From Verrucomicrobium sp. GAS474 (GTDB lineage: Bacteria; Verrucomicrobiota; Verrucomicrobiia; Methylacidiphilales; GAS474): a DNA stretch of 64,000 nt. The stretch covers positions 124,001-188,000 of the forward strand of contig NZ_LT629781.1 in the NCBI RefSeq assembly GCF_900105685.1. Reading direction: 5' to 3'. The position numbers and the translations under genes were made by a program. This document shows positions 32,193 to 64,000 of the stretch, piece by piece. The notes under the pieces were generated by a model. That model saw nothing but the letters and a program-made list of their open reading frames with translations, had not been told where the DNA came from and did no database searches. Positions within the stretch are counted from its first letter, which is position 1. Each line of letters begins with the position of its first letter.

Positions 32193-34547
32193 TCAATTAC
32201 TGACCGCCGACGGCACGGTGGGAAGGTTGACAGGCAGAATAAGGGACGCCTGGGTGGGGTCTTCCCACGCGCTATAGAGGGAATAAGGATCGTGATAGAC
32301 CGACGATTGCGGGATCATTTCGCCCTTCAGGACCGGCTCTCCGGCCGTCCCATCGACCCCGCCCTGCTCGGCCACCTGCGCGACGGTCCGCCCGTCGTCG
32401 CTGCCTCCGGCAGTCGAGTCGGCACCCGCGCCCGTGGGGCCGGGAACCGCGGCAAAGCCGGGCGTCCCCGCTCCCGCCGAGGCGACCACCGCCGCGGAAG
32501 CGGAAGTCCCTGCCGCCGAGTTGGCCGTATTCCCGGGCGTCGAGGGCGCTCCGTTCGCGCCCGGCGCTGCGGGCGTTCCCGTGGCTCCGGGAGCGTTCGC
32601 CGCGAGAGCCGGGTTCCCCGCGGGATTCGCATTCGGGTTGTTGAGACCGGCTGCGGTCTCCGCGGCGGCGAGCGTCGCGACGCTGCGGCCCTGGTAGGCG
32701 TAGTCGAGATCCTGCACCTGGTATTGGCCGGAAACGCCGACGCTGACGACGGTGATGGGGGTGTCAGCGGGACCGCCGGGAAGCGGGGTGATGCGGACGC
32801 GGACGCCGTCGAGCGATTGCCCGGCGAAGTCGAGCTTGGCCTCGGAGAAGCCTCCCTTCGTCGTCGTCGTCGCGAGGACCTCGCCCTCATCGGGCGGGGT
32901 GGGGACGATGCCGCCGGGGACGAAGACCTGGTCGACGCCGTTGCGGAGCGGACCGGCCCCGGCCCCGACGGGGCTCTGATCCCACGCCTTCTGGATGACG
33001 AAGGGCTGGACGGCGAGGTTCGAGCCGCCCGCACCCGCCGCGCCGCCCGAGCCGATCGAGGTCGATTCGCCGGGGTGGAGGGTGTAGGTCTCGCCCGTCG
33101 TCGTCGAGTTCACCTGGACGCCGTCGGCGCGGCTCGTCTCGAGGAGGCTGATCGTGCTGGCGCCGTTGAGCTTCACCTCGGCGATGATCGTCGTGCCGGT
33201 GATCGTGGCGACCGACGACGGCGTGATGAGGCGGCCGCCGCCGCCCGGCGTGAAGACCTGCCAGAGGACGGTGCCGCGGAGGACGCTGACCTCGGCCCCG
33301 GCGGCGGTGCCGATGCGGAGGGTGACGCTGCTGTTCGGCCCGACGCGGAGGAGGGACTTCCCGTCAATGTCGAGCTCGGCGGAGGAGTTGAAGCTGGTCC
33401 GCAGGACGCGGCCCGGGAGGAGGACGTCGCCCGGCTTCGCGGGGGACTGGCCGGTGCCGTCGATCGAGAGGGTCTCGACAACGCCGCTGACGCGCGTCAC
33501 GGTCGCGATGCCGGAGGAGGGGGTGACCGGCGGCGGCGGGGAGGCCCGGATCAGCTCGACGCGGGCAGGCGGCCCCGCCATGACGATGGAGGCGCTGGAG
33601 ACTTTCCGCTTCCCCTTGAAGTCGAGGTCGACCGTCGGCGCGGGGTCGGCGGCGTTGAAGGTGTAGCTGGAGCCGAGGGCGTCGGCGATCATCTGGTTCG
33701 GCTCGGAGCCCTTCGCGCCGGAGCTGACGCGGGAGACCCGGGTGCCGGAGGAGATGTTCGCCATGTCGACGGAGACTTCCTTCGTCGGCGGCAGCGCGGG
33801 GGTGCCGCCGGGGGCGCCGCTCTTCGGCGTCGCGGCGAGGCCGCCGGGGGCGGGCGGAACGGCGGGGCCGTCCTTCTTCTCGTCGCCGACGCGGACCGCG
33901 AAGTCGAGCGCCGAGGCGAGGCCGTAGACGCCGAGGCGGGCGATGCGGCCGGGGCGGACGACGCGGAACTCGATCTGGATGAACTTCGCCATCTGGGGCT
34001 GGAAGACGGCGTAGTTCACCATGCTCGGTCCCGCCAGGGCGTTCTCCTGCTTCGTGGGGGGCGTCGGCTGGAGCTGGGGGTCGGAGGCGCCGATGAGGAC
34101 GTTGAAGGTGCCGGTCGCCTCCATGTTGACGAAGGCGACGCGGTTCACCGGCATCGGCTTCGCGAGGGTGATCGTGATGCTGTGGAAGCCGGGGGCCAGC
34201 TCGAGGCCGTCGAAGCTCGAGGTGAGGAGGGAGGAGACGTCGAGGGTCCCTGCCGCCGTCGCCGGAGGGGGGAAGCCGTTGATCATCCGGAGGCCCGCCG
34301 ACTGGTTCACCCGGATGCGGGTGCCGAGGAGCTGCTGGGCGAGGTTCTTCGGATAGAGATGGCCCTGGGACATCTGGCCGCGGGGCGGCACCTGGGCGGC
34401 CTGTTGGGGGGTCTGGGGAAGCTGGGTCGGGGGCGGAACGGTCGATTGCGCCTGGAGCGGGAGCGGGCCGGCGAAGGAGGCGGCGAGGCCGACCATTAAA
34501 AGACGAAGGGCCACTTCCCGCAAGGAAAGCGTCCAACCCCGATTCAT
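32193..34547 (-). CDS. Secreted FecR-domain protein with galactose-binding-like domains
   Basis: 784 residues. The ATG at 34547 (MNRGWTLSLREVALRLL) is preferred over the one at 34571, because AAGGGCAAC lies just upstream of it and it gives a compact signal peptide (cleavage near PLPLQAQ). Residues about 65-200 look like a discoidin/F5-8 fold (GLELAPGFHSITITLAKPMP, AKFIQIEFRVVRPGRIARLG), and 235-330 is a second region of this kind. A FecR domain spans about 375-500 (TLRIGTAAGAEVSVLRGTVL, SSVATITGTTIIAEV, GETYTLHPGESTSIGSG). The C-terminal about 150 residues are Ala/Gly/Pro/Thr-rich. It is probably a periplasmic or surface protein acting with the polymer. It shows no transmembrane anchor and no sigma-regulator partner, so a signalling role is doubtful. 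Confidence 0.72.
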   Translation of the reverse strand: MNRGWTLSLREVALRLLMVGLAASFAGPLPLQAQSTVPPPTQLPQTPQQAAQVPPRGQMSQGHLYPKNLAQQLLGTRIRVNQSAGLRMINGFPPPATAAGTLDVSSLLTSSFDGLELAPGFHSITITLAKPMPVNRVAFVNMEATGTFNVLIGASDPQLQPTPPTKQENALAGPSMVNYAVFQPQMAKFIQIEFRVVRPGRIARLGVYGLASALDFAVRVGDEKKDGPAVPPAPGGLAATPKSGAPGGTPALPPTKEVSVDMANISSGTRVSRVSSGAKGSEPNQMIADALGSSYTFNAADPAPTVDLDFKGKRKVSSASIVMAGPPARVELIRASPPPPVTPSSGIATVTRVSGVVETLSIDGTGQSPAKPGDVLLPGRVLRTSFNSSAELDIDGKSLLRVGPNSSVTLRIGTAAGAEVSVLRGTVLWQVFTPGGGGRLITPSSVATITGTTIIAEVKLNGASTISLLETSRADGVQVNSTTTGETYTLHPGESTSIGSGGAAGAGGSNLAVQPFVIQKAWDQSPVGAGAGPLRNGVDQVFVPGGIVPTPPDEGEVLATTTTKGGFSEAKLDFAGQSLDGVRVRITPLPGGPADTPITVVSVGVSGQYQVQDLDYAYQGRSVATLAAAETAAGLNNPNANPAGNPALAANAPGATGTPAAPGANGAPSTPGNTANSAAGTSASAAVVASAGAGTPGFAAVPGPTGAGADSTAGGSDDGRTVAQVAEQGGVDGTAGEPVLKGEMIPQSSVYHDPYSLYSAWEDPTQASLILPVNLPTVPSAVSN

Positions 34548-34571
34548 CCGATGTTGCCCTTGTTTTTGCAT

Positions 34572-34597: not shown

Positions 34598-34867
34598 ACC
34601 GATCCCCTTGTCTCCGACTCAGAGAGAGTGCGCAAGTCCTCTCGACTTGGCAAGTCCCAACCCACCGGAAACACGACGGAGCCCTCCCCTCCCCACACTC
34701 TTTTCGGCAGAATGAAGGGAAAGTGAAGGGGGAAATCAGGGAAAAGAAAGCTCCGCCAGCACTCCAAGGCATAGTTCCTCCCAAGCGGACAGGGGAACTA
34801 GCGGACCCTTTCTATCCGAAGCGGGCGGCCTAATGCGGTGCCGCTCCGAACAGTTCAGGCCTATCAG

Positions 34868-34964
34868 ACAGGGAGGTCCAGGAGGGGCAAAGCCCCTCTT
34901 GCGTCGTCTAATACGTGCGGGTTACATCCACCTGTACAGGGTCTCTGCCCGGTCCCGAAGGAGC
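34868..34964 (-). repeat. Dispersed structured repeat, copy C
   Basis: Read on the minus strand: CTCCTTCGGGAC (UUCG hairpin, TCC/GGA), ACCCTGTACAGGTGGATG, CCGC, then AAGAGGGGCTTTGCCCCTCC with a seven-base stem (34882-34888 with 34892-34898), then TGGACC. The core differs from copies A and B at a few positions only. It lies between panD and the FecR-domain gene. Confidence 0.7.
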
Positions 34965-35016
34965 ATTCACCGCCAACCCGGGTCCCCTCCCTGAACGTCG
35001 ATTCAGAGCAGACGCG

Positions 35017-35376
35017 CTACTTTTCCGAACGGACGATGGCGTTCTTCTCGTCGAGGACGAGGACCTTCGGCTTATGCGTCGGGGCATCGGCTTCGTCGAC
35101 CTGGGCGAAGGCCATGATCGTGAGGCGGTCGCCGATCTTGCCGAGGTGGGCGGTCGCACCGTTGAGCTCGATCCGCCCCTCGCCGACCGCGCCGAGGATG
35201 ACGTAGGTCTCGAAGCGTTCCCCGTTGGCCATGTTCCCGACGAGGATCCGCTCGTATTCGCGGAATCCGGCTTTCTCCGCCAGATCGGCCGAGATCGTCA
35301 GGCTCCCCTCATAATGAAGGCTCGCCCCCGTGACGGCGGCGCGATGAAGCTTCGATTTGAGGAGGGTAACCAACAT
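35017..35376 (-). CDS. panD: Aspartate 1-decarboxylase precursor
   Basis: 119 residues, normal family length. PanD makes beta-alanine from L-aspartate for pantothenate and CoA. The self-processing site is Gly24-Ser25 in HYEGSLTISADLAEKAG, which would yield the pyruvoyl group on the alpha chain. Other conserved pieces are KLHRAAVT at the N-terminus (Lys9, His11), NGERFETYVI and LNGATAHLGKIGDRLTIMAF. The gene is alone, 63 bases downstream of ndk. A putative promoter lies only about 14 bases before the ATG, and no Shine-Dalgarno is visible (CTTTCCC precedes the ATG), suggesting a leaderless or near-leaderless message. Confidence 0.96.
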   Translation of the reverse strand: MLVTLLKSKLHRAAVTGASLHYEGSLTISADLAEKAGFREYERILVGNMANGERFETYVILGAVGEGRIELNGATAHLGKIGDRLTIMAFAQVDEADAPTHKPKVLVLDEKNAIVRSEK

Positions 35377-41432: not shown

Positions 41433-42434
41433 ATGGCCGAGGCCAAAGTCCACTGGGTGCGCAGCAACGGCTTCGTCCTGGGACTCGGCCTCGCCGTCGT
41501 CGTCGCCTTCCTCGTGCCTGGCCCCGGCTCCCGCGACGGCCTCCTCCATCCCGAGATCCTGAACAACGTCGGCGTCGCCCTGATCCTCTTCCTCCAGGGC
41601 CTCTCCCTTCCGTTCGAGAAAATCAGGAACAGCCTCGGCCAATGGCGGCTCCACCTCGTCATCCAGGGCTTCACCTTCGTCCTCTTCCCCCTCGTCGGCC
41701 TGCTGCTCGACGCCCTCCTTCCCCGCCTCTGGACCTCGGAGCCGATGGCGATCCGCAGCGGCTTCCTCTACCTCTGCGTCCTTCCCTCCGTCGTCTCCAC
41801 CTCGGTCGTCTTCACCACCACGGCGGGAGGGAACACCGCCGGGGCGCTCTTCAACGCCGCCTTCTCGAACCTCCTCGGCGTCTTCGCCACCCCCGTCCTC
41901 GTCCACTGGCTGATGCAGAGCGCGGGGCACGGGGCGATGCCGCCCTTCGGCCCGCTGCTGCTGAAGATCACCCTCCTCACGCTGATCCCCTTCAGCCTGG
42001 GCGCCGCCCTCCGGCCCCGGCTGCGCGAATGGTTCGACCCGCGCAAGGCGTGGGCCGCCCGGATCAGCAACGCCGTCATCCTCTGCATCGTCTACACGGC
42101 CTTCTGCGACTCGGTGGCGGAACGGATCTGGAGCAAGTACAGCTCCCTCCTCACCGTGCAGATCATCGCCGTCGTGATCGCGCTCTTCGCCGGGATCTCG
42201 TTCCTTGCATGGGGACTCTGCAAGGCGTTGCGATTCGACCGCGCCGACACGATCGCGGCCTACTTCTGCTCGGTGAAGAAGACCCTGGCGATGGGCGTCC
42301 CGCTGGCCGCGCTGATCTTCGGCGCGCGGCCCGATCTCTCCCTGATCCTCCTGCCGATCATGCTCTATCACCCGCTCCAGCTGATCGTGAACGGGATTCT
42401 GGCCAATCAGTTGTCGAAGGGGGCGCGAAGTTGA
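41433..42434 (+). CDS. Bile acid:sodium symporter family protein (SBF-like, YfeH type)
   Basis: 333 residues with ten hydrophobic segments, starting NGFVLGLGLAVVVAFLVPGP. Conserved features of the SBF_like group: GVALILFLQGLSLPFEKIRN after helix 2, VLPSVVSTSVVFTTTAGGNT (cross-over motif of the first half), LFNAAFSNLLGVFATPVLVH, and FCSVKKTLAMGVPLAALIFG (second half). It is an inner-membrane, sodium-dependent secondary transporter of organic anions; the substrate is unknown. The gene lies 19 bases after the preceding one. A copy of the dispersed repeat starts eight bases after its stop. Confidence 0.87.
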   Translation: MAEAKVHWVRSNGFVLGLGLAVVVAFLVPGPGSRDGLLHPEILNNVGVALILFLQGLSLPFEKIRNSLGQWRLHLVIQGFTFVLFPLVGLLLDALLPRLWTSEPMAIRSGFLYLCVLPSVVSTSVVFTTTAGGNTAGALFNAAFSNLLGVFATPVLVHWLMQSAGHGAMPPFGPLLLKITLLTLIPFSLGAALRPRLREWFDPRKAWAARISNAVILCIVYTAFCDSVAERIWSKYSSLLTVQIIAVVIALFAGISFLAWGLCKALRFDRADTIAAYFCSVKKTLAMGVPLAALIFGARPDLSLILLPIMLYHPLQLIVNGILANQLSKGARS

Positions 42435-42441
42435 GGGGCAT

Positions 42442-42545
42442 CCCCTTCGGGGCAGGGTAGAATCGCTTCGCTTCCCTGTACAGCTGGAGGCAACCCGCTT
42501 TAACGCCAAGGAGCGGGCTTCGCCCCTCCTTGAACCTCTCCCGTC
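42442..42545 (+). repeat. Dispersed structured repeat, copy B
   Basis: CCCCTTCGGGG hairpin (42442-42452), the core CCCTGTACAGCTGGAGGC (42474-42491), CCGCTTTAACGCC, then GAGCGGGCTTCGCCCCTCC (42511-42529) with the stem kept by a bulged C, then TTGAACC. It lies between two convergent genes (the symporter and tatA). The gap between the first hairpin and the core is about ten bases longer than in copy A. Confidence 0.75.
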
Positions 42546-42668
42546 AGAGGCGGTAGGAGGAACTGTGACTTCGATCTAAAAGGCGATGCCCCTTCGGAAG
42601 GCGGTACTCAGCTGTTTCTAACGCGCCTGGGAGGAATCACGCGTCCCTGTGCCAGGGAACCGCAGCGG

Positions 42669-42974
42669 TTAGTGCGCGTCCTTCTTCACTTCGGCAGGGG
42701 TCGCCGGAGGCTGGATCGTCTGCTGCGTCGGGAGGGCCGGAGGCACCGCCGAGGTGGCCGGGGTGACGGGGGTCGCCGGGGTCTCATGGATCGAGGTCTT
42801 CACTTCGCGATCGAACTCGTCCTTCGCTTTCTTGAATTCGCCGAGGCTCTTGCCGAGGCCGCGGGCCAGTTCGGGAAGCTTCTTCGCGCCGAAGAGGAGA
42901 ACGAACAGGATGAAGATCCAGAAGAACTCCATGCCGTGGGGAAGCAGGGCGAAAAAGGGCAGCGTCGTGTGCAT
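42669..42974 (-). CDS. tatA: Sec-independent (twin-arginine) translocase subunit TatA/E
   Basis: 101 residues. One N-terminal membrane helix (MEFFWIFILFVLLFGAKKLP) with the conserved F-G-x-K-K-L-P hinge leads into the amphipathic helix ELARGLGKSLGEFKKAKDEF. A Pro/Thr/Ala-rich tail follows. There are 14 residues before the second Met (MEFFWIF), so translation may start there; the longer form is given because it also opens with ATG. TatA forms the export pore for folded proteins. It lies 46 bases downstream of nrtD, whose operon encodes an NrtA with a twin-arginine signal. tatB and tatC are not in the window. Confidence 0.9.
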   Translation of the reverse strand: MHTTLPFFALLPHGMEFFWIFILFVLLFGAKKLPELARGLGKSLGEFKKAKDEFDREVKTSIHETPATPVTPATSAVPPALPTQQTIQPPATPAEVKKDAH

Positions 42975-47085: not shown

Positions 47086-50000
47086 CTAGCGGCCGAAGAT
47101 CGCGGCGCTCAGGTCGGCCTTCACCTGCGGGCTCACCGAGAGGCCGAGCGCGGGCGGCGGGGGAGCGCCGCCGCCGCCGGGCAGGCCGCCGATCGCGGCG
47201 ACCGTGCCGGGACCCATGACGGTTTCCTTGCCGTTCGCCGTCGTGGTGGTGGTCGTCGTCGAGGTGTTGCCCATGGTGCTGCTCTTCTTGCCGTTGTCGG
47301 TCTTGCCGTCGGCGGTCGTCTTCTTGCTCGAATCGTCGTTACCCGAGACGGCGTCGGGCGTCGTGTCGCTCGTCTTGACGACGGGGGTCGAGGTCACCGT
47401 CGTCGTCGTGCTCGTGGCGGTGGTCGTCGCGTCGGCCGCCTTCGTGACGACCTGGACGATCACGGCGGCCGAGGCGGCGCTGGTGCTCGCGGCGGCGCTC
47501 GTTGCCGCCGGGACGCTGGGAGCGCCGAGGCCCGCAGCGATGGTGAGGGAGGCCGAGCCTTCGGTGATCGTCGAGGTCACTGTCGTCGCCGTCCCGGAGC
47601 CCGAGACGGTGATCGTCGCGTTCCCGGCGGCGAAGGTGTTCATCCCGCTCGTCGCGCCCGTGGAGAGGCTGGTGGAGAGCGTCCCGTTCGGCCCCGAGAT
47701 CGAGTAGGCGCTCCCGCCGGTCTGCGTCGCGGCGCTCCGGTAGGCGAGCTGGACCGAGGGAGAGGTGATCGTGCTCACGCTGTGGATGGTGATGCTTCCG
47801 GCGAAGAGGTTCCCCGTGTTGGTCAGGGCGATCGAGTAGCCGGAACCCGCGGTCACGTTGAGGTCCCCCCCCACGACGAGGGCGCTGCTCTGGCTGACCA
47901 AGCCCCCGGAGGTCACGGTCAGGTTCCCCGTCACCGTCCCGCCGAGGTAGACGGACGCGTTGGCATTGAGAGTGAAGTTGCCGTTGAACAGGAGCGCCCC
48001 GCCCATGGTGGAGAACTGGGTCTCCTGGTTGTAGTAACCGAGGGTGATGCCACCGCCCGTTGCCGTGTAGGTCTGGTTCCCCGACGCCGTCATGGCGATC
48101 AGGCCACCGCCGTTGATGGTGGCGGCCGTCGCGGCGATGGAGCCGGTGCCGGTGGCATTCCAGGTCGTGTGCAGGACGCTGAACGTCCCTCCGTTCAGCG
48201 CCGTCACGGCGATGTTCCCGTCGACGACGGTGAGGCTCGTCGCGTCGGAGGAGACCCCACCGATCCCCGAGATGGTGATCGAGCCTGTGCCGCCCGTGCT
48301 AATCTGCGTCATCCCGGCATCGCCGTTGAAGGTACCGACGCCGAGCGTCGAAACCAGCGTCCCGGTCGGCCCGCCCGTTCCCGAGAGGATAATGTTGCCG
48401 GTGGTGGCCGTGACCTGGGTGCCGGTGAAGTAGATACCGTAATTAGCGTAGTTTTGGCCGGGCAGCGAGGTTCCGCCCGTGCCGCTCACGAAGATCGAGC
48501 CGCTTCCCGCCGCCGTGAGGTGCGTGTAGGAATCGGCGAAGACGCCCGTGGCGTTGGTTCCCGAACCTGCACGCCCGTTCAGGGTCAGCGCCCCGGGCCC
48601 GCCGACCTGGACCGTGCTGGAGACGAGTTCGATGCCGTAGGAATTGCCGCTCATCGCCGTGTCGCCCGTTCCCGAAATCGTGATTCCCGCCCCGTTCGAC
48701 GCGACCTGCATGCTGGAAAGAACGACGCCGACCGTGTCGCCGACCGAGGCCGCCCCGCCGGTGCCGGTGAGGGTGATCGATCCGCTGTCGCACTGGAGGG
48801 TCGTCCCCGAATCGATCCAGATGCCGGTCGAGTCGTCTCCGCTTCCGCCCACGCCGATGACCTGCAGGTTGCCGATGCCGCCCGCCGTGAACGTCGACGA
48901 GTCCGCATAGACATAGACGCCGATCGAGGAGCCGCCCGAGGTGATCCCGCCCGTGCCGTTGATCGTCAGGTTGTTCGAGGCTGCCGTGATGATCATCGAG
49001 TCGATGTAGACGCCGTAGGAATACTGGGCGGCGTGGCTGACGCCGGTGATCGTGATCGTTCCGGTCCCCGTGGTTCCCAACGTCCCGTCGGAGAGCGAGA
49101 CGCCGTTGGAATAGCCGTTGGTCGCCGTCCCGCCCGTGCCGCTGATCGAGATGCTGCCGCCCACCGTCGCCGACGCGTTGGAGAGGACGACGCCGTTCGA
49201 CTCGTTGTTCGTGGCCGTCGCGCCCGTTCCCTCGATGTGGAGCGTCCCGGCATTCAGCAGGACCGTCGCGCTGCTCTCGTACATGCCCATGCCGAGGTAG
49301 ACGCCGGTGGAACTGCCTCCGGTGCCGCCCGTGCCGATGAACGAGAAGCCGCCCGCCCCGTCGCCCTGCGCCGTGCTGTCGCTGAAGGAGATGCCGTAGG
49401 AATCGCCGTTCACCGCGTCGGAACCGGTGCCGCTGACGATGACCTGGCCGTCGACCGTGTAGAGGGTCGAGTCGCTGTCGACCGAGACGCCGTAGGAGTT
49501 GTCGCCCGTCCCCGCGTGGCCGGTGAGATGGAGGGTGGCCGTCCCGGAGGCGTTGAGCGAGCTTCCCGAGATACGGACGCCGTAGGAGTCGTGGCCTGTG
49601 GCCAGCGCGCCGTTGCCGACGATCTCGATGTCCCCGGTGTCGGTCGAGACCGCCGAGTTGTTGATCAGAACGCCGGCCGTGTCGCCCAGGGTCGAGGTCA
49701 GGGCGGTGCCGTGGATCGTCACCCCGCCCTGCGCCAGGACGCTCGCGTTGTCGATCAGGACGCCGCCCGCGTTCGCGATCATCGAGATGGTTCCATTGCT
49801 GTTCAGGATCGAGTTCTTGATCGAGACGATCCCGCTGGCGGCGGTGAAGGCGAGGTTGATCGCGGTGTTCCCTCCTCCGTTGTGGTTCACCATGAAGGTG
49901 TCGGCGTAGATGTTGCCCCCGGCGTTGAAGGTCAGCGAGGCCGCCGTCCCGGTCGTGTTGTCGACGTTGAGGCCGACCGTCGTCCCGCCGCTGTTGATGC

Positions 50001-53000
50001 CGAGGCTGATGTTATTCGTCGCGCTGAACGTCACGCTGTGGCTGCCGCCCGAGGCGAAGACGAAGGAGCCGGTCCAGTAGATGTTGTCGGCCGAGATCGT
50101 GACGCCGCCGGTGCTCGTGGAGAAGGAGTCGGAAAGCGCGCCGTTGCCGAGGTTGCCGTGGCCGTCGTCGCTGGCGTCGCCGCTCGTCCCGGAGAAGGAG
50201 AGGTTGTTCCCCGTCACGGTGATGATGGCCCCGAGGTCGTGCAGGCTCCCCGCGGCATTGAGATCGACCGTCCGGCCGGTCAGGCGGGTTCCCGAGGCGA
50301 GGTTGATGTCGGTGGCGCCGTGGACCGCCAACGCCCCGCCCGCCGCCAGCGCCGACGTTCCGTCGATGGACAGGATCCCGCTCGTCACGGCCGTCACGGA
50401 GAGGTCGCCCGTCGTCGCCGTGAGCGTCGAGCCGGAGATCGAGACGCCGTAGGAGGTGCCGCTCGAGATCGAGCCGCCCGTCCCGTTCACGACGACGGCG
50501 CCGCTCCCCGAGGCGGTGAGGGTGGCGGAGAGGAGGGCGACGCCCACGGACCCGTTGACCGCCGTGCCGCCGGCGCCGGAGATCGAGAGGAGGCCGTCGA
50601 CGACCGAGAAGGAGGTGGAGTCGACATTGACGCCGGTGGTCAGGTTCGTCGCCTCCTGGGTCGTGCCGTCGATGTGGATCGAGCCGGTCCCGGTGGTCGA
50701 GATCGTGCTGCCGGTTCCGGCCGAGAACATGTCGATGCCCGTCGTCGCATAGACGGGGGCCCCCGTCGACACACCGCCGGTTCCCGAGATCGTGATGTCG
50801 CCACCGCCGCTCTGAATCTTCACGCTGGGGAGGCGGACGCCGACGGAGTAGGTCGACGCGCCGCCGGTGCCGTAGAGCGCGATCGAACCGGCGGCGGTCT
50901 GGAGGCTGACGGCGCCCGAGTTGTATTCGATGTTGATGCCGAAGGAATAGATGCCGGAGCTGTCGGTCGCGGTCGTGCCGGTGATCGTGATGCCGCCCGT
51001 GCCTGCCGCGCTTCCCGTCGAAGTCGAGTCGAAATTGACCCCGTAGGTGGCGTTGCTGGCCTGACCGCCGGTGCCGTTGAGGATGATGTTGCCGCTGGCG
51101 GTGGTGAGCGTCGAGCCGCTGTTGAGGCTGATGCCGGCCGAGATGCCGCTCGGATTGGCCGCATTGCCCGCCCCGGTACCATTGAGCGTGACGTCGCCCG
51201 TGCCGGTGTTCTCGATGATCGCGGCGATGCCGTAGATGCCGTAATTGCCGTAGGCGGTGCCCCCGTTCGAGATGGCCGTCCCGGTGCCGGTGATCACGAT
51301 GTCGCCCCCCGTCGTCGTCACGGTGCTGTTGCTGAGGCTCACCGCGAAGGTATCGACATAGCCGACGGAGGGAATCGTCCCGTTCAGCGTCACCCCGGTG
51401 CCCGCTGCGAGGGTCGAGTTGGAGATGGCGAGGCCGCCCGCCGTCGCGGTCACCGAGATTGAGCCGTTGCCCGCGAAGAAGGAGTTCTGGATCGAGACCG
51501 CCGCCGCGTTGAAGGTCAGGTCGATCGTCTGGGTCCCGCCGTTCCGATTCACCAGGAAGGTGTCGGCGTAGATGTTGCCGCCCGCGAGGAAGGTGAGCGA
51601 GGCCGCCGCGGCGGTCGTGTTGTCGACGCTGAGGCCGACCGTCGTCCCGCCGCTGTCGATGCCGAGCTTGATGTCGTGCACCGCGCTGAACGTCACGTTG
51701 CGGCTGCCGCCCGAGGCGAAGGTGAAGGAGCCGGTCCAGTAGATATTGTCGCCGGAGATCGTCACGCCGCCCGCATCGGTGCCGAGGGCGCCGGAAAGGA
51801 GGCCGTTCCCCACGGTTCCGGCGCCGTCGTAGTTCAGGTCGCCGCTTCCCCCCGAAATCGAGACATCGGAGCCCGGATAGGCATACTGGACGACGACAGG
51901 GGATCCGGTCACGGTGATCGTCGCCCCGTTGACCTGGGTTCCCGAGGCGGAGATGTTGACGCCGTAGCCGGTCGCGGAACTGCCGGTGGCGAAATTGAGG
52001 TCGCCCGAGCTGTCGACCGTCAGCGTTCCGCCCGCCGTGAGGGAGCTCGTCCCGTCGGCGTTGATCGATCCGGCGGCGTTGCCGATCAGGGACAGGTTCC
52101 CCATCGTGGCCGCCAGGGAGGTGGAGGAGAGGAGGATATCGTAACGGCTCGTCGCGCTGGCATCGGCCGTTCCGTCGACGTGGATGTTCCCGCTCGACGA
52201 GGTCGCGGTGACGCCGCTCATCGAAACCCCGTAGGAGATCCCCGAGGAGGTCGCCCCGCCCGTGCCGGACACCGTGATGTCCCCGGACGCCGAGATCGAG
52301 ACGGTGTCGAGCCTGACCCCGAAGGATTCGGAAGACCCGAGGGAAGCCGTCCCCGAGGCCGAGAAGGCCGTCGTCGTCGTGACCATCGAGAACGTCGCGT
52401 TGGAGATCGAGACGCCGTAGCTGCGGACGCTCTGGCCGCCCGTGCCGTCGAACTCGACGCCGCCCGCGAAGGCCAGGCCGGTGAAGGTCGCCCCGTCGAC
52501 CTCGATGCCGTAGGAGGCGGTGCCCGCCGCCGATCCGCCCGAACCCGAGAAGTAGATCCCGCCGGAATGGGTGATCGCGGTGCCGTTGAAATGGATGCCG
52601 ATGGAGGAGTCGGAGGCCTGGTTGCCGTAGCCCTGAAGCTCGATGGCATTGGTGTTGCCCAAAAGAGTGGTCGTATCCATCTCAATGCCGTAGGACAGGT
52701 CGCCGCTCCCGGCGTTGCCGGTGATCTGGCCGTGGCCCCCGCCGGAAAGCGTGATCTGCGCGCCGTTGCCCACGATGCCGGCGGAAGTGACCGTCGCGTA
52801 CCCGCCGGTGCCGGTCAGCGTCAGGTAGCCGTCGACCAGATTCACCATCGCCCCGGGTTCCAGGTCGACGCCGATCGATCCGGAGAGGGTGCCGGAAGTA
52901 TCGCCGCCCGTGCCCGAGAGATGGATCGCGGCCGATCCCGTCGTCGCGACGGTGCTGCCAGAGATCGAGACGCCGATGGAGTTTTTGGAATTGCCGCTCG

Positions 53001-56000
53001 TCGCGCCGCCCGAGCCGTTGATCGTGATCGTCGAGGTGGTGTTCGAGATCGTCGTCGCCGATTCGATGGAGACGCCGACCGAGGAACCCGTCGTCGTGCC
53101 GCCGAAGCCGCCGTAACCGGTGATGACCGTGGGGCCCGAGCCGATGTTAGAGACGATCGAGTCGTAAAGCTTCACGCCGTAGGAGCTGCCGCCGGCGGCT
53201 GAGAGGCCGCCCGTGCCGCTGATCGTGAGCCAGCCCGAGGTCGTCTCCGCCGTCGAGGAACTGACGGAGACACCGATGGAGGCGTTGATTCCCGATTGGC
53301 CGCCGATGCCGATGATCCCCAAGTCGCCGCTGTTGGTCCGCACCGTCGACCCGTTGAGGAAGACGCCGTAGGAGAAGGAGGCGCTATTGCCCGTCCCGGT
53401 CAGAAGCACCGTGCCGGTCCCGGTCGCCGTGACCGTGCTTCCGCTCAGGTAAAGGCCCATCGCGTAGGCCCCGTCGTGGCTCGTGCCGTCGAGGCTCACC
53501 GTTCCCGCCGAGGTCGAAATGAACGAGTAGCTGATCTCCGTGCCGTAGATCGAGTAGTTGGAGCTGCCGCCCGAGCCCGAGATCCCCAGGCTCCCCGTGC
53601 TGGTGCTGACCTGCGTGCCGTCCATGAGCTGGACGCCGTAGCTGATGGTATTGCTGCCGGTCGCCTGCCCGCCGGTGCCGTGGATCGAGATGGCACCGCT
53701 CCCCGTCGCGGTGATCGAGCCCGTCGTCGTGTAGACGCCCGCGCTCGTCAGATCGGAAGCCGTGCCGGCCGTGCCGGTGATCGAAAGGGTCCCGTCGACC
53801 AGCGTCACCGTCGAGGAGGAGAGCGAGACGCCGTAGGAATTGTTCCCCGACTGGCCGGAGCCCGAAAGGGTGATCGAGCCCGTCCCGCTCGCCTGGAGCA
53901 CGCTGCCCCCGGCGATGCCGATGCCGTAGGAGGCGTGGCCGGTCGCCGCCGCGCCCGTGCCGGAGATCGAAATGGTCCCGGCCGCCGTCGTGACCGTCGA
54001 GCCGCTGAGGGAGACGCCGTACGTGTCGGTCGAGGCGGAGGCCGAGGCCGTCCCGTTGATCGTCACCCCGCTCCCGGCGCTCACCGAGAAGCCGGAGAGG
54101 GCGACGCCGCCCGCGGTGGAGATGATCGAGACCGAGCCCGAGGTGGCGCTGAACGAGCCGCCGCCGAGCCGGATCGAGACGGCATCGGTGTAGCTGATGT
54201 TCCCCGAGGTCGAGACGACGTTCAGGCCGGTGAAGCCGGCGTTGTAGACCGAGGCGAGGCTGCCGCTGCTGACGTAGACCGTCGAGGTCGTCGCCGCGCC
54301 GGAGGAACCGAGGTTGATGTTGCCGCCGCCGAATTGCTTCAGCGTCAGGACGCCGGTGCCGAGGAAGGTGGTGTTCCCGGTGAGGGTGACCTGGCCGTTG
54401 GCCGTCAGCGTCACGGCCCCGCTGCCGAGGTTGACCGAGGAGTTCGTGATGTTCAGACCGTTCGGGGTGCCGCTCGCCGCGCTGTAGCCGCTGAGGGTCG
54501 TCGAGCCGCCCGAGTTGCTGATCGTCGCGGTGTTCGCGTAGAGGCCGAGACCGCTGGTGCCGCTGCCGGAGATGACGAGGTTGCCGACGCCGGCCTGCTT
54601 GATCAGGGAGCCGCCCGCGAGGTAGAGGCCGTAATCGGCGCCCGCCCCGGCGAGCTGCAATTGCCCGCCCGTCGCCTGGACGACGGCGTTGACGAGCTGG
54701 ATGCCGATCGAGCCGTTCGTCCCCGCCGTGCCGCCCGTACCGTTGAGGGTCACCGTCCCGGCGCTGGTCGCCTTCACCGTCCCGTTGTTCAGGTAGATGC
54801 CGTAAGCCTCCCCGGCCGAGGTGGAACCGCCCGTACCGTTGATCAGGATGTTCCCCGTCGTCGCCGTCACCGTGGAGCCGCTGATGGAGACGCCGTCGGC
54901 GACCAGGCCGACGCCCGAGGCTCCCGCCCCCCTGATCGTGATGGCACCCGCCCCCGCATCGAGGGTCGAGCCGGAGGTGAGGGAGACGCCGTTGACGCTC
55001 GTGAACTGCGTGTAGTTGTAATTGTTGACCGAGGCGACGCCGAGCGCCGAGCCGGTGCCGCCGCTCCCGCTGCCGATGACGATCGAGCCGCCGTCGGTGA
55101 CGATCGTCGCGCCGTAGAGGTAGACCGAGCCGCCGGTCGCCGTGCCGCCGTTGCCGTTGGTGCCGTTGGCGAAGGAGGTCAGGACGAGGCTCAGCGTCCC
55201 GTAGCTGCCCGAGTGGGAGATTTCCCAGTCGACCGAGGTGAAGGTGATGTCGAGGTCGGCGGCGAGGGTCAGCTTGTGGCTGTAAGGCATGAGCGCCGTC
55301 TGGTTGGAGCCGTTGACGATGATGTTCCCGCTCGCGGAGACGATGACGTCGTTCGTGCTCAGGGCGGTGAAAAGAGTCGCGTCGTTGATGCCGCCCGTCC
55401 CCCCGCCCGAGCTGAAGACCCAGAACCCCGACCCGCTCGAACTCGAGCCGGTGGTCGAGTAGCTGCCGATGTAAACGTCCTGCGGATCGAGGAGCCAGGT
55501 GCCGCCGTTCGTGTCGACGTGGCCATCGGCATAGAGCGTGTGGCCGCTGGTCTCGACCCAGCCGCCGCTGCCGCCGCCCGCACCCTTCGCGGTGATGTTC
55601 CCGTAGAAGCGGGTGGTGTCGTTGGCCCAGACGGTGACCTGGCCGCCGTCGCCAAGGACGAGGGCGTCGGCGCTGATCGTGGTGTCGCTCCCGACGTAGG
55701 TGCTGATGGCGTTGTAGACGGTGCTGTCGCCGGTCCCGTGGGGGCTGCCGCCGATGTGGATGACGCCGCCGCCCGCAGGGCCGCTCGCGGTGACGCTCCC
55801 GGTGCCGTAGAGGGCGACGTAGTCGCCGCTCAGTTCGACGAGGCCGCCTTTGCCGCTGGTGGCGCTGGCGTCGACGGTGCCGTTGACGAGGGTGGTGCCG
55901 CCCGATCCGCTCTGGACTTTGATGGTGCCGCCGCTGCCGTCGGCGTTCTTGGCGGCGAGGGTGCCGCTGCTGCTGAGGGTGCCTCCCGCGGCGCTGAGGT

Positions 56001-56847
56001 GGATGACGCCGTTCTTGGCCGTGGCTCCGGTGGCGCGGACGACGCCGGTGTTGTTGATGGCGAGGCTGTAGAGGTTGCCGGTGGCTTTGAGGTCGGCCTG
56101 GACGGCGTTGATGAGGCCGCTGTTGTTGATGCCGGTGCCGGCTCCGCTGCTGAGGCTGCCGCTCCCGACGCGGACGAGGCCGCCTTCGGGGACGCCGGTG
56201 GTCAGATAAAGTTCGTCGGTTGCGTAGACGCCGACGAGGCCGCCTTTGCCCGCGACTTCGCTGGCGTTGACGGTGCCCTGGTTGTCGATGTGTTTGGCGA
56301 TGAGGTAAACATCTCCACCGACGGCGTTGATGGTGCCGAGGTTGGTGATGGCGGCGGTGCTATTGCCGACGAAGTGCATCGCGCCGCTCCCGTTGTTGGC
56401 GATGAAGTCGGCGTTGTTGATGTCGAGGGTGCTCGCCATGAACCCGGCGGTGTTGACGATGCCGGTGGCGCCGATCATGACGCCGTTGGGGTTGATGAGG
56501 AAGACTTTGCCGTTGGAACTCAACGTGCCGTAGATCTGGGAGAGGTTGGTCCCGACGACGCGGTTGAGGACGGTGCTGTTGGCGTCGCTCTGGATGAATT
56601 TGGTCAATTCCCCAGCCCCGATGCTGAAGTCTTGCCAGTTGATGACGGCTCCGTTGCTGTTGACGACGGTCAATGTGTTGCCGCTGCTGCTGATGTTGGC
56701 CGTGCCACTGACGACGTCGCCCCCGGTGGGGTTCGCTCGCAGTTCCCACGGGGTCACGCTGAGGCCCACCATGATCCCCAACAAAAAGATACCGGCCAGC
56801 CGTCCCCGCTGGTTTTGCCCGACACGGGCCCCTTTATTCCCCATCAT
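47086..56847 (-). CDS. Giant two-partner-secretion (filamentous haemagglutinin-like) adhesin
   Basis: 3253 residues. A signal peptide (AGIFLLGIMVGLSVTPWELR, cleavage near A38-N39) leads to a TpsA secretion domain (about 39-290): VVNSNGAVINWQDFSIGAGE, NRVVGTNLSQIYGTLSSNGK, and the hallmark NPNG at 119-122. GGWVETSGHTLYADGHVDTN and TWLLDPQDVYIG near 435-460 are typical of such proteins. From about 640 to 3000 the protein is degenerate repeats of roughly 40-50 residues with a GTGG...SYGVS theme, expected to form a beta-helix. The last 150 residues are Thr/Ser-rich and end PPPPALGLSVSPQVKADLSA. It would be threaded through an outer-membrane TpsB, which is not here, and act in adhesion or biofilm. 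The reading frame is intact. Confidence 0.88.
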   Translation of the reverse strand: MMGNKGARVGQNQRGRLAGIFLLGIMVGLSVTPWELRANPTGGDVVSGTANISSSGNTLTVVNSNGAVINWQDFSIGAGELTKFIQSDANSTVLNRVVGTNLSQIYGTLSSNGKVFLINPNGVMIGATGIVNTAGFMASTLDINNADFIANNGSGAMHFVGNSTAAITNLGTINAVGGDVYLIAKHIDNQGTVNASEVAGKGGLVGVYATDELYLTTGVPEGGLVRVGSGSLSSGAGTGINNSGLINAVQADLKATGNLYSLAINNTGVVRATGATAKNGVIHLSAAGGTLSSSGTLAAKNADGSGGTIKVQSGSGGTTLVNGTVDASATSGKGGLVELSGDYVALYGTGSVTASGPAGGGVIHIGGSPHGTGDSTVYNAISTYVGSDTTISADALVLGDGGQVTVWANDTTRFYGNITAKGAGGGSGGWVETSGHTLYADGHVDTNGGTWLLDPQDVYIGSYSTTGSSSSGSGFWVFSSGGGTGGINDATLFTALSTNDVIVSASGNIIVNGSNQTALMPYSHKLTLAADLDITFTSVDWEISHSGSYGTLSLVLTSFANGTNGNGGTATGGSVYLYGATIVTDGGSIVIGSGSGGTGSALGVASVNNYNYTQFTSVNGVSLTSGSTLDAGAGAITIRGAGASGVGLVADGVSISGSTVTATTGNILINGTGGSTSAGEAYGIYLNNGTVKATSAGTVTLNGTGGTAGTNGSIGIQLVNAVVQATGGQLQLAGAGADYGLYLAGGSLIKQAGVGNLVISGSGTSGLGLYANTATISNSGGSTTLSGYSAASGTPNGLNITNSSVNLGSGAVTLTANGQVTLTGNTTFLGTGVLTLKQFGGGNINLGSSGAATTSTVYVSSGSLASVYNAGFTGLNVVSTSGNISYTDAVSIRLGGGSFSATSGSVSIISTAGGVALSGFSVSAGSGVTINGTASASASTDTYGVSLSGSTVTTAAGTISISGTGAAATGHASYGIGIAGGSVLQASGTGSITLSGSGQSGNNSYGVSLSSSTVTLVDGTLSITGTAGTASDLTSAGVYTTTGSITATGSGAISIHGTGGQATGSNTISYGVQLMDGTQVSTSTGSLGISGSGGSSNYSIYGTEISYSFISTSAGTVSLDGTSHDGAYAMGLYLSGSTVTATGTGTVLLTGTGNSASFSYGVFLNGSTVRTNSGDLGIIGIGGQSGINASIGVSVSSSTAETTSGWLTISGTGGLSAAGGSSYGVKLYDSIVSNIGSGPTVITGYGGFGGTTTGSSVGVSIESATTISNTTSTITINGSGGATSGNSKNSIGVSISGSTVATTGSAAIHLSGTGGDTSGTLSGSIGVDLEPGAMVNLVDGYLTLTGTGGYATVTSAGIVGNGAQITLSGGGHGQITGNAGSGDLSYGIEMDTTTLLGNTNAIELQGYGNQASDSSIGIHFNGTAITHSGGIYFSGSGGSAAGTASYGIEVDGATFTGLAFAGGVEFDGTGGQSVRSYGVSISNATFSMVTTTTAFSASGTASLGSSESFGVRLDTVSISASGDITVSGTGGATSSGISYGVSMSGVTATSSSGNIHVDGTADASATSRYDILLSSTSLAATMGNLSLIGNAAGSINADGTSSLTAGGTLTVDSSGDLNFATGSSATGYGVNISASGTQVNGATITVTGSPVVVQYAYPGSDVSISGGSGDLNYDGAGTVGNGLLSGALGTDAGGVTISGDNIYWTGSFTFASGGSRNVTFSAVHDIKLGIDSGGTTVGLSVDNTTAAAASLTFLAGGNIYADTFLVNRNGGTQTIDLTFNAAAVSIQNSFFAGNGSISVTATAGGLAISNSTLAAGTGVTLNGTIPSVGYVDTFAVSLSNSTVTTTGGDIVITGTGTAISNGGTAYGNYGIYGIAAIIENTGTGDVTLNGTGAGNAANPSGISAGISLNSGSTLTTASGNIILNGTGGQASNATYGVNFDSTSTGSAAGTGGITITGTTATDSSGIYSFGINIEYNSGAVSLQTAAGSIALYGTGGASTYSVGVRLPSVKIQSGGGDITISGTGGVSTGAPVYATTGIDMFSAGTGSTISTTGTGSIHIDGTTQEATNLTTGVNVDSTSFSVVDGLLSISGAGGTAVNGSVGVALLSATLTASGSGAVVVNGTGGSISSGTSYGVSISGSTLTATTGDLSVTAVTSGILSIDGTSALAAGGALAVHGATDINLASGTRLTGRTVDLNAAGSLHDLGAIITVTGNNLSFSGTSGDASDDGHGNLGNGALSDSFSTSTGGVTISADNIYWTGSFVFASGGSHSVTFSATNNISLGINSGGTTVGLNVDNTTGTAASLTFNAGGNIYADTFMVNHNGGGNTAINLAFTAASGIVSIKNSILNSNGTISMIANAGGVLIDNASVLAQGGVTIHGTALTSTLGDTAGVLINNSAVSTDTGDIEIVGNGALATGHDSYGVRISGSSLNASGTATLHLTGHAGTGDNSYGVSVDSDSTLYTVDGQVIVSGTGSDAVNGDSYGISFSDSTAQGDGAGGFSFIGTGGTGGSSTGVYLGMGMYESSATVLLNAGTLHIEGTGATATNNESNGVVLSNASATVGGSISISGTGGTATNGYSNGVSLSDGTLGTTGTGTITITGVSHAAQYSYGVYIDSMIITAASNNLTINGTGGITSGGSSIGVYVYADSSTFTAGGIGNLQVIGVGGSGDDSTGIWIDSGTTLQCDSGSITLTGTGGAASVGDTVGVVLSSMQVASNGAGITISGTGDTAMSGNSYGIELVSSTVQVGGPGALTLNGRAGSGTNATGVFADSYTHLTAAGSGSIFVSGTGGTSLPGQNYANYGIYFTGTQVTATTGNIILSGTGGPTGTLVSTLGVGTFNGDAGMTQISTGGTGSITISGIGGVSSDATSLTVVDGNIAVTALNGGTFSVLHTTWNATGTGSIAATAATINGGGLIAMTASGNQTYTATGGGITLGYYNQETQFSTMGGALLFNGNFTLNANASVYLGGTVTGNLTVTSGGLVSQSSALVVGGDLNVTAGSGYSIALTNTGNLFAGSITIHSVSTITSPSVQLAYRSAATQTGGSAYSISGPNGTLSTSLSTGATSGMNTFAAGNATITVSGSGTATTVTSTITEGSASLTIAAGLGAPSVPAATSAAASTSAASAAVIVQVVTKAADATTTATSTTTTVTSTPVVKTSDTTPDAVSGNDDSSKKTTADGKTDNGKKSSTMGNTSTTTTTTTANGKETVMGPGTVAAIGGLPGGGGAPPPPALGLSVSPQVKADLSAAIFGR
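49715..50190 (-). repeat. Second copy of a ~155-residue module inside the adhesin
   Basis: Encodes GGVTISADNIYWTGSFVFAS, HSVTFSATNNISLGINSGGT and GGNIYADTFMVNHNGG. It corresponds to the block at 51385-51845 with similar residues throughout and about 1.66 kb offset. It shows that the repeat array grew partly by segmental duplication of larger blocks. Confidence 0.75.
51385..51845 (-). repeat. First copy of a ~155-residue module inside the adhesin
   Basis: Encodes GGVTISGDNIYWTGSFTFAS, RNVTFSAVHDIKLGIDSGGT and GGNIYADTFLVNRNGG, closely matching the module at 49715-50190. The shared order of about eight short motifs excludes chance. Confidence 0.75.
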
Positions 56848-57005: not shown

Positions 57006-59024
<2,019 letters not shown>

Positions 59025-59045
59025 TCACGCGCACGCGCCGCTTCG

Positions 59046-59145
59046 GCTTCCTCCCTACGCCAGCATGATCTGGATCAGGTTCATCGGGTCGTCGCCTCTC
59101 GATGGCGACCTCTCAGTCCCTCCTTGGGACTCCCCGTCCCCGGAA
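59046..59145 (-). promoter_or_regulatory. TPP riboswitch (THI element) of thiC
   Basis: On the minus strand the conserved pieces occur in order: GGGGAGTCCC, GGGACTGAGAGG (the CUGAGA of the pyrimidine-sensing arm), then ACCCGATGAACCTGATCC and GATCATGCTGGCGTAGGGAG (pyrophosphate-sensing arm and 3' helix). P1 can close with CTTCC against GGAAG. It lies about 75 bases before the thiC ATG. Binding of thiamine pyrophosphate would reduce thiC expression. The Pyr-rich CCCCTCCTCC downstream suggests control at translation initiation, but no clear terminator was seen. Confidence 0.93.
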
Positions 59146-59163
59146 GCATACGCCGCCCCCCGA

Positions 59164-60932: not shown

Positions 60933-61532
60933 TCACCGCAGGCTCTTTGCCTTCTCCGGCCCCTTCCACAGGCCGACCGCGCCGAGGATTCCCTTCGCCT
61001 GCGGAGCGATCCCCTCGATCCGGTCGTAGACCTCGTAGGGCGCGTGGATCGAATGAAGGGAATGGGCGATGAGCTGGCCGCACCGTTCGCGGGCTCCGTC
61101 GAAACAGCGGACGGTCCCGATATCGGCCATCGACTCCCACGACCGGGAGACGACATCGAGCGCCGTCACCTCCCCGCCCCAGAGCGCATGCCACGTCTCG
61201 CCTTTCCGGAAGAAGATCCGGCGGGAGGTCACCGCATAGCCGGTCTGCGAGTAAAGGCGGAGGCGATGGGCGAGGACGCCCAGGGCGACCACACTCGGCC
61301 CCGTCAGGTGGAGCGCGGTGAAGAAGGGACGGAACCAAGTCACTCCCTGGAAGCGGGCATAGAACAGCGAGAAGAGCTTCGAGCCATGATGAAAATCGAG
61401 GATGGCCCAGCCGAAGGAGAGGAGGAAGAAGAAGAAAGCGGAAGCGAAATGGGCAAGCACCGCGGGACGGCCTTCCCACAGTACGATCTCGTCGGCTTCG
61501 AGGTCTTCGGAGAAATTGAGGCCGGGCCGCAT
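60933..61532 (-). CDS. bPH2-like (YdbS-type) membrane protein
   Basis: 199 residues. EADEIVLWEGRPAVLAHFAS at the N-terminus is the E-x-x-L-W-x-G-R-P start of bacterial PH-domain (DUF304-type) proteins. Two membrane helices follow (ASAFFFFLLSFGWAILDFHH, GPSVVALGVLAHRLRLYSQT), and then YAVTSRRIFFRKGETWHALW, the conserved Y-x-V-T-x-x-R segment of the family. Function of these proteins is not settled. It lies between rpoC and the membrane protein at 59164, alone behind an AT-rich stretch. Confidence 0.7.
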   Translation of the reverse strand: MRPGLNFSEDLEADEIVLWEGRPAVLAHFASAFFFFLLSFGWAILDFHHGSKLFSLFYARFQGVTWFRPFFTALHLTGPSVVALGVLAHRLRLYSQTGYAVTSRRIFFRKGETWHALWGGEVTALDVVSRSWESMADIGTVRCFDGARERCGQLIAHSLHSIHAPYEVYDRIEGIAPQAKGILGAVGLWKGPEKAKSLR

Positions 61533-61628
61533 GGGGCTACAAATTAGATTCCGGGGGCGGGGAGTGTCACTTAGAAAAAATGAAAATATTGTTTAAAAAT
61601 TAAACGGAAAAGGAGGGTGGGGGGAGGT

Positions 61629-61726
61629 GCCCTTCGGGGCTTGCGCGGTCGACCCTGTACAGCTGGAGGCGATCCGCTTTATAGCCCAAGAGGGGCTTCG
61701 CCCCTCCTGGAACTTGTCTCCCGACC
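61629..61726 (+). repeat. Dispersed structured repeat, copy A
   Basis: GCCCTTCGGGGC (61629-61640) folds as a UUCG tetraloop hairpin. CCCTGTACAGCTGGAGGC (61653-61670) is the most conserved part, then CCGCTTTATAGCC, then a hairpin GAGGGGC-TTC-GCCCCTC (61690-61706), then CTGGAAC. The same parts in the same order occur at 42442-42545, and reverse-complemented at 34868-34964. It lies in the gap between rpoC and the PH-domain gene. Confidence 0.75.
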
Positions 61727-61941
61727 CTGCCAGTTAGTTTCCCCTTTACGAGGTGTTGCGCTATCGCGCAGGCAGTCCTGTTCTTAGGGCCTTAGCTAGG
61801 CGGACGCTCCCCTGCGCTTCGTCTCCTCACTGGATTAAAATCGGATGGTTCCGGTACGCCCGAGGGTACGTACTGAAGGGGGAGCTGTACCCATACGCCC
61901 TGACTCCTATTGGGAGAGATCCTCTCCCCTCCAAACAAAAA

Positions 61942-61965
61942 ACGCGTCCCCTTTCGGGGACGCGT
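61942..61965 (-). terminator. Rho-independent terminator of rpoC
   Basis: A perfect ten-base stem ACGCGTCCCC / GGGGACGCGT with a four-base loop (TTTC), followed on the minus strand by TTTTTTGTTTGG. It also has a short T-run on the plus strand, so it could stop transcription both ways. Confidence 0.93.
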
Positions 61966-61984
61966 TTTCTGGAGGTCGCTCGAC

Positions 61985-64000
<2,016 letters not shown>

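Follow-up and report, generated by a model that had tools for sequence, protein, structure and literature searches.

Repeat copies and genes of the window

The window analyzed here, a stretch of 64,000 nucleotides from Verrucomicrobium sp. GAS474 (contig NZ_LT629781.1, positions 124,001 to 188,000), contains three intergenic copies of a repeated element, hereafter copies A, B and C. Their strands and gaps agreed with the initial annotation: 34868-34964 (-), 42442-42545 (+) and 61629-61726 (+). A UUCG hairpin, a CCTGTACAG-N-TGGA core, the CCGC motif and a GGGGC-TTY-GCCCC hairpin were found in each of the three, and the bulged C described for copy B is present in the sequence. The extent of about 100 bases originally given to the element holds for its 5′ half only, as the full elements run further.

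Copy A is a full type I element at 34750-34990 (-), as delimited by alignment and end mapping, and its 5′ module (UUCG hairpin, core and second hairpin) occupies 34868-34964 (-). It lies 3′ of panD (35017-35376, -), in the sense direction, and 5′ of a FecR-domain gene (32193-34571, -), both assigned by Pfam. Copy B, also a full type I element delimited in the same way (42417-42668, +; core CCTGTACAGCTGGA at 42475-42488, +), occupies the whole of a convergent gap, with an SBF-like transporter gene (41433-42434, +) on one side and tatA (42669-42974, -) on the other; these two genes were likewise assigned by Pfam. The stop codon of tatA begins at the base directly after the 3′ end of the copy. 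At the other side, the last five codons and the stop codon of the transporter gene are inside the 5′ end of the element (42417-42434), so that the insertion may have replaced the C-terminus of the SBF-like transporter.

Copy C (61611-61918, +) belongs to type II and has a nested module. It is antisense to both of its neighbors, an unknown gene (60933-61532, -) and rpoC (ending at 61985, -). Its core CCTGTACAGCTGGA is at 61654-61667 (+); the second hairpin stem, GAGGGGC-TTC-GCCCCTC with the co-varying outer triplet CCA/TGG, is at 61690-61706 (+); and the nested module of about 63 nt (TTGTCTCCCGACCCTGC...GCGCTATCGCGCAGGCAGT) is at 61714-61776 (+). A terminator-like hairpin beside rpoC (61939-61968) is outside the copy. 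The type I copies A and B have about 240-250 nt and a common 3′ half ending CTTGGGAGGAAYYAYG..., while copy C has about 310 nt and a 3′ half unlike theirs.

Two other features of the window can be mentioned. A TPP riboswitch (59034-59152, -; 68.9 bits), located 5′ of a thiC-like gene (57006-58988), was the sole match of the Rfam 15 covariance-model search in the window. The largest gene by far (47086-56847, -) has about 3250 codons in one open frame.

Modular architecture and hairpin covariation

The full elements of the family measure about 230-310 nt and have defined ends, common hairpins and swappable middle modules. The 5′ module, which comprises the UUCG hairpin, the CCTGTACAGNTGGA core and the second hairpin, is conserved; hairpin modules that vary between copies come next, and the 3′ end (CTTGGGAGGAAYCACGCGTCC...GGAACCGAAGCGG) is again common to the family. 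The module of about 63 nt found in copy C is present at varying positions across many copies (L004, L008, L021, L022, L029 and L030), even inside the second hairpin, and is possibly a second repeat family. In the copies at 1526615 and 3274144 of the genome, the middle is deleted and both ends are kept, a pattern that a role of the ends in movement would predict, although chance deletion is also possible. By inspection, the 5′ end A(A/G)GGGGTCGCGAAG is no inverted copy of the 3′ end GGAACCGAAGCGG, and no terminal inverted repeats were found. No constant target-site duplication was seen at the left and right junctions inspected, where the element ends are uncertain by a few nucleotides. As a separate observation, head-to-head pairs of elements surround a tandem array of units of about 46 nt (GCGCATGGGAGAGGAACGCTTGGGAGATAAGGCGTATGGGA...) at G000:C1:1763111-1763956, 1670203-1670981 and 199068-200298.

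The selection on structure that had been suggested from the three copies is supported for the second stem. The hairpin GAGGGGC-loop-GCCCCTC is extended by a co-varying triplet, of which four versions (CCA/TGG, CAC/GTG, CAA/TTG and GCA/TGC) are exactly complementary and two (CCA/TCG and GCA/TGG) have one mismatch each; this pairing was equalled by none of 5000 shuffles. For a hand-drawn structure of three helices in 35 copies, 81.9% of the cells were paired and 30 cells were changed on both sides, counts that are inflated by related copies. No shuffle was as good for paired or both-sides-changed cells, and the structure also surpassed all of its slid versions. Pair positions with double changes were no more numerous than in the shuffles. 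Folds of single copies presented no unusual stability (z from -0.03 to -1.78), thus the support for structure rests on covariation. The consensus folds of RNAalifold were poor on alignments of mixed types, since the types differ by a register of one nucleotide in the second stem. Taken together, a constraint on the hairpins, acting on RNA or on single-stranded DNA, is credible.

Copy number, distribution and insertion sites

The element is far from limited to the window. In the home genome of 3.76 Mb, a single contig that is 99.9% complete, the core CCTGTACAGNTGGA occurs exactly 136 times (62 forward and 74 reverse) and 178 times at one mismatch (79 and 99), against 0 exact and 2 + 4 one-mismatch occurrences of the reversed control pattern. 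Counts so far above the control show that the three-copy repeat is not due to chance. The same whole-genome counts (62+/74-) led us to reject a leading- or lagging-strand bias.

In the kind of search proposed in the initial annotation, a covariance model derived from 35 diverse copies recovered at least 67 copies in the home genome and at least 66 in G002, a metagenome-assembled genome (MAG) of the same genus. The model gave no copy in G001, another genome placed in this genus, in 59 further members of the order or, under strict filters, in 287 genomes of the phylum. Among the genomes of 84,980 species, the sole match to an exact 24-base pattern was the MAG ‘uncultured Verrucomicrobium sp. I3b_bin-317’, apparently G002 itself, and there was no match in plasmid and viral collections. 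Among all genomes searched, therefore, the family is restricted to two sister species.

Comparison of orthologous gaps showed that those without the element in the sister genomes are often only about 10-25 nt in length, so that most of the corresponding gap is taken up by the element where it is present. The gap between rpe and lepA, which we take to be these genes from their recognizable protein ends, has 371 nt in the home genome and about 12 nt in G001. Another gene pair is separated by 624 nt in the home genome, with two tail-to-tail elements starting at TAG, and by 10 nt in G002; and one convergent gap has 337 nt in the home genome (terminator and element) against 136 nt in G002 (terminator only). 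In one further gap, a type I copy is forward in the home genome and a copy of a different type is reverse in G002, which indicates independent insertion. The cases from G002 come from a fragmented MAG, many contigs of which end at copies of the element, and in the few cases seen the positions of the element were not conserved between the sister species. Median lengths of element-free gaps were alike in the home genome and G001 (24 and 21 nt, with alignment ends corrected). Presence and absence give no direction by themselves, and the relatives could have lost copies; this is unlikely, since their gaps have about 10 nt.

Genomic context was analyzed in a part of the home genome, 531 kb at first and 707 kb later, that was selected for the most part around copies; genes were called by a codon-usage script that reproduces the obvious genes of the window. 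None of the 114 copies examined was inside a gene. They were distributed in 50 convergent, 29 tandem sense, 30 tandem antisense and 5 divergent gaps; among gaps of at least 100 nt, 46 of 185 were divergent, and the scarcity of copies in this class was significant (Fisher p 1e-6). The near equality of sense and antisense copies in tandem gaps indicates no strand preference. In most copies, a stop codon adjoins one or both ends. The stops at the 5′ junction were TAG in 48 cases, TAA in 10 and TGA in 8, against 139/123/94 in the controls (p 7e-7 for TAG), and TGA was also rare on the 3′ side. The excess of TAG and the depletion of TGA fit a TA-containing target, although this is only a hint. A TA duplication as in Tc1/IS630 was rejected, since no constant flanking TA was seen despite the preference of the junctions for TAG over TGA.

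These positions could also be explained by a cis-acting RNA element of the 3′ UTR, related to mRNA stability or transcription termination and kept by selection at gene ends. Such a function would agree with the stem covariation, with the avoidance of divergent gaps and with the position of 66 of 114 copies, which start at most about 160 nt from the stop codon of a gene on the same strand; in 31 of these 66, GGGG follows the stop immediately. Nevertheless, 29 sense and 30 antisense copies in tandem gaps are unexpected for a strand-specific RNA function, no individual fold is exceptional, and positions differed in the few comparisons of the two sister species. The terminator content is also unremarkable: intrinsic terminators (GC hairpin and U tract) were present in the element body in 5 of 143 cases in sense and 2 of 143 in antisense, and terminators were found in 15 of 53 element-bearing and 11 of 37 element-free convergent gaps. 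We thus regard the 3′-UTR explanation, one of three proposed initially, as improbable. Replacement of terminators by the element was considered separately: in convergent gaps of at least 60 nt, terminators were present in 14 of 53 with the element against 11 of 14 without it, a difference that is gone when short gaps are included, as in the counts above (30 of 183 in G001), and this candidate was rejected.

Another of those proposals, that the copies are genes of one family of trans-acting small RNAs spread by duplication, would account for a conserved unpaired core (CCTGTACAGNTGGA) flanked by co-varying stems. It is extremely unlikely in view of the copies that follow stop codons directly and in both orientations, and a crude consensus scan detected no promoter-like or terminator-like site around copy C. 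Furthermore, six element loci gave no credible match in Rfam even at a relaxed threshold (E≤5), so that the suggested comparison with this database assigned the element to no family.

Probable mobilization and relationship to known repeats

The remaining initial proposal, a non-autonomous mobile repeat, is the one that the data favor. High copy number, presence and absence at orthologous sites, insertions in opposite orientations, internal deletions that keep the ends, nested insertions and head-to-head pairs all point to it. The element probably represents a family of non-autonomous mobile DNA repeats, about 230-310 nt in length and high in copy number, that is restricted to one lineage. We propose that an enzyme supplied in trans would have spread the copies by recognizing the hairpins and ends as DNA, that insertion would be favored or tolerated directly after stop codons, and that purifying selection would remove insertions from genes and promoters. 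At present the copies are likely selfish or neutral, though they may affect co-transcribed mRNA as a side effect. A more specific scenario is that the repeat lands at stop codons (TA-containing targets), giving the gene a new stop codon and 3′ UTR, and that, despite its lack of terminal inverted repeats, it was spread by a kind of transposition enzyme not so far linked to such repeats; we consider this unlikely.

Searches for a mobilizing enzyme with Y1_Tnp, DDE_Tnp_1, DDE_3 and RVT_1, each of which gave matches in control genomes, had no match in the home genome. We rejected as partners a REP-associated tyrosine transposase (RAYT), IS4-type and IS630-type DDE transposases and a reverse transcriptase, as none of their genes was found. 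One weak rve match corresponded to a TnsA-TnsB-like fusion (L226; G000:C1:1022014-1022268 plus flanks), with no copy of the element in its 3.2 kb. This gene is a single frame with a TnsA-like N-terminus, rve and a Mu-type C-terminus, as in a Tn7-like TnsA-TnsB fusion; the families searched yielded no other transposase-like gene in the home genome. The mobilizing enzyme may have been lost, or may come from a family beyond those searched.

Mobilization by a RAYT, as in REP/BIME-type repeats, was also weighed. Like REP/BIME and the GTAG/CGTC palindromic repeats, the element is intergenic, of high copy number, hairpin-forming and often at gene 3′ ends, and a GTAG-type REP family, a type tied to RAYT transposases, has been reported from another verrucomicrobium (PMC3733652). 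In addition, G002 contains two Y1 tyrosine transposase genes (L227 and L228, about 151 aa), with an inverted repeat other than the present element (GGTGGTGTCGGGGCTCACGCCCC...) on their flanks, as a RAYT/TIRYT-like unit. However, neither the core nor the ends of the element are present in these flanks, the home genome has no Y1_Tnp gene, and the element is modular with 230-310 nt, unlike REPs, which are palindromes of 20-40 nt (PMC3733652). An origin of this type is very unlikely.

The preferred reading of a non-autonomous mobile repeat can be compared with other families. As enterobacterial ERIC/RU repeats and bacterial MITEs, the element is non-autonomous, structured and mainly intergenic; MITEs, on the other hand, are defined by terminal inverted repeats and a relation to insertion sequences (IS) (PMC2759123, PMC10969869), while in this element terminal inverted repeats were not found, nor was a relation to IS in the searches with DDE_Tnp_1, DDE_3 and rve. 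The element was not classified as a MITE or a REP, since their defining features failed or could not be shown. No match to an already described repeat or IS end was obtained, and a partial search of the literature found no published description. The element is nevertheless short, non-coding, intergenic and of high copy number, with presence and absence at orthologous sites, as defined for small interspersed mobile repeats. It separates genes that are about 10 nt apart in relatives, as rpe and lepA, so that the organization of operons may change. Copies probably also interrupt short-read assemblies, as the many G002 contigs ending at copies suggest.

The closest resemblance is to the BOX elements of pneumococci, which have about 100 copies per genome, are modular and hairpin-forming, range from less than 100 to several hundred nt, are over-represented in convergent gaps, nest in one another, are found in one or few sister species and were judged parasitic (PMC3049150). 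Copy scale, modular hairpins, convergent gaps, nesting and narrow host range are shared by the present element, sequence having been compared through Rfam only. Unlike BOX and RUP, for which terminal inverted repeats, duplication of the target and a proposed IS partner are described (PMC3049150), the present element showed no inverted termini, clear duplication or partner, and it adjoins stop codons unusually tightly. We concluded that the element would be a new family of the general kind of BOX, RUP and SPRITE, which it most resembles in behavior (PMC3049150). With it, the Verrucomicrobiota gain a repeat family at the scale of pneumococcal BOX, with two sister genomes in which the insertion sites can be seen.
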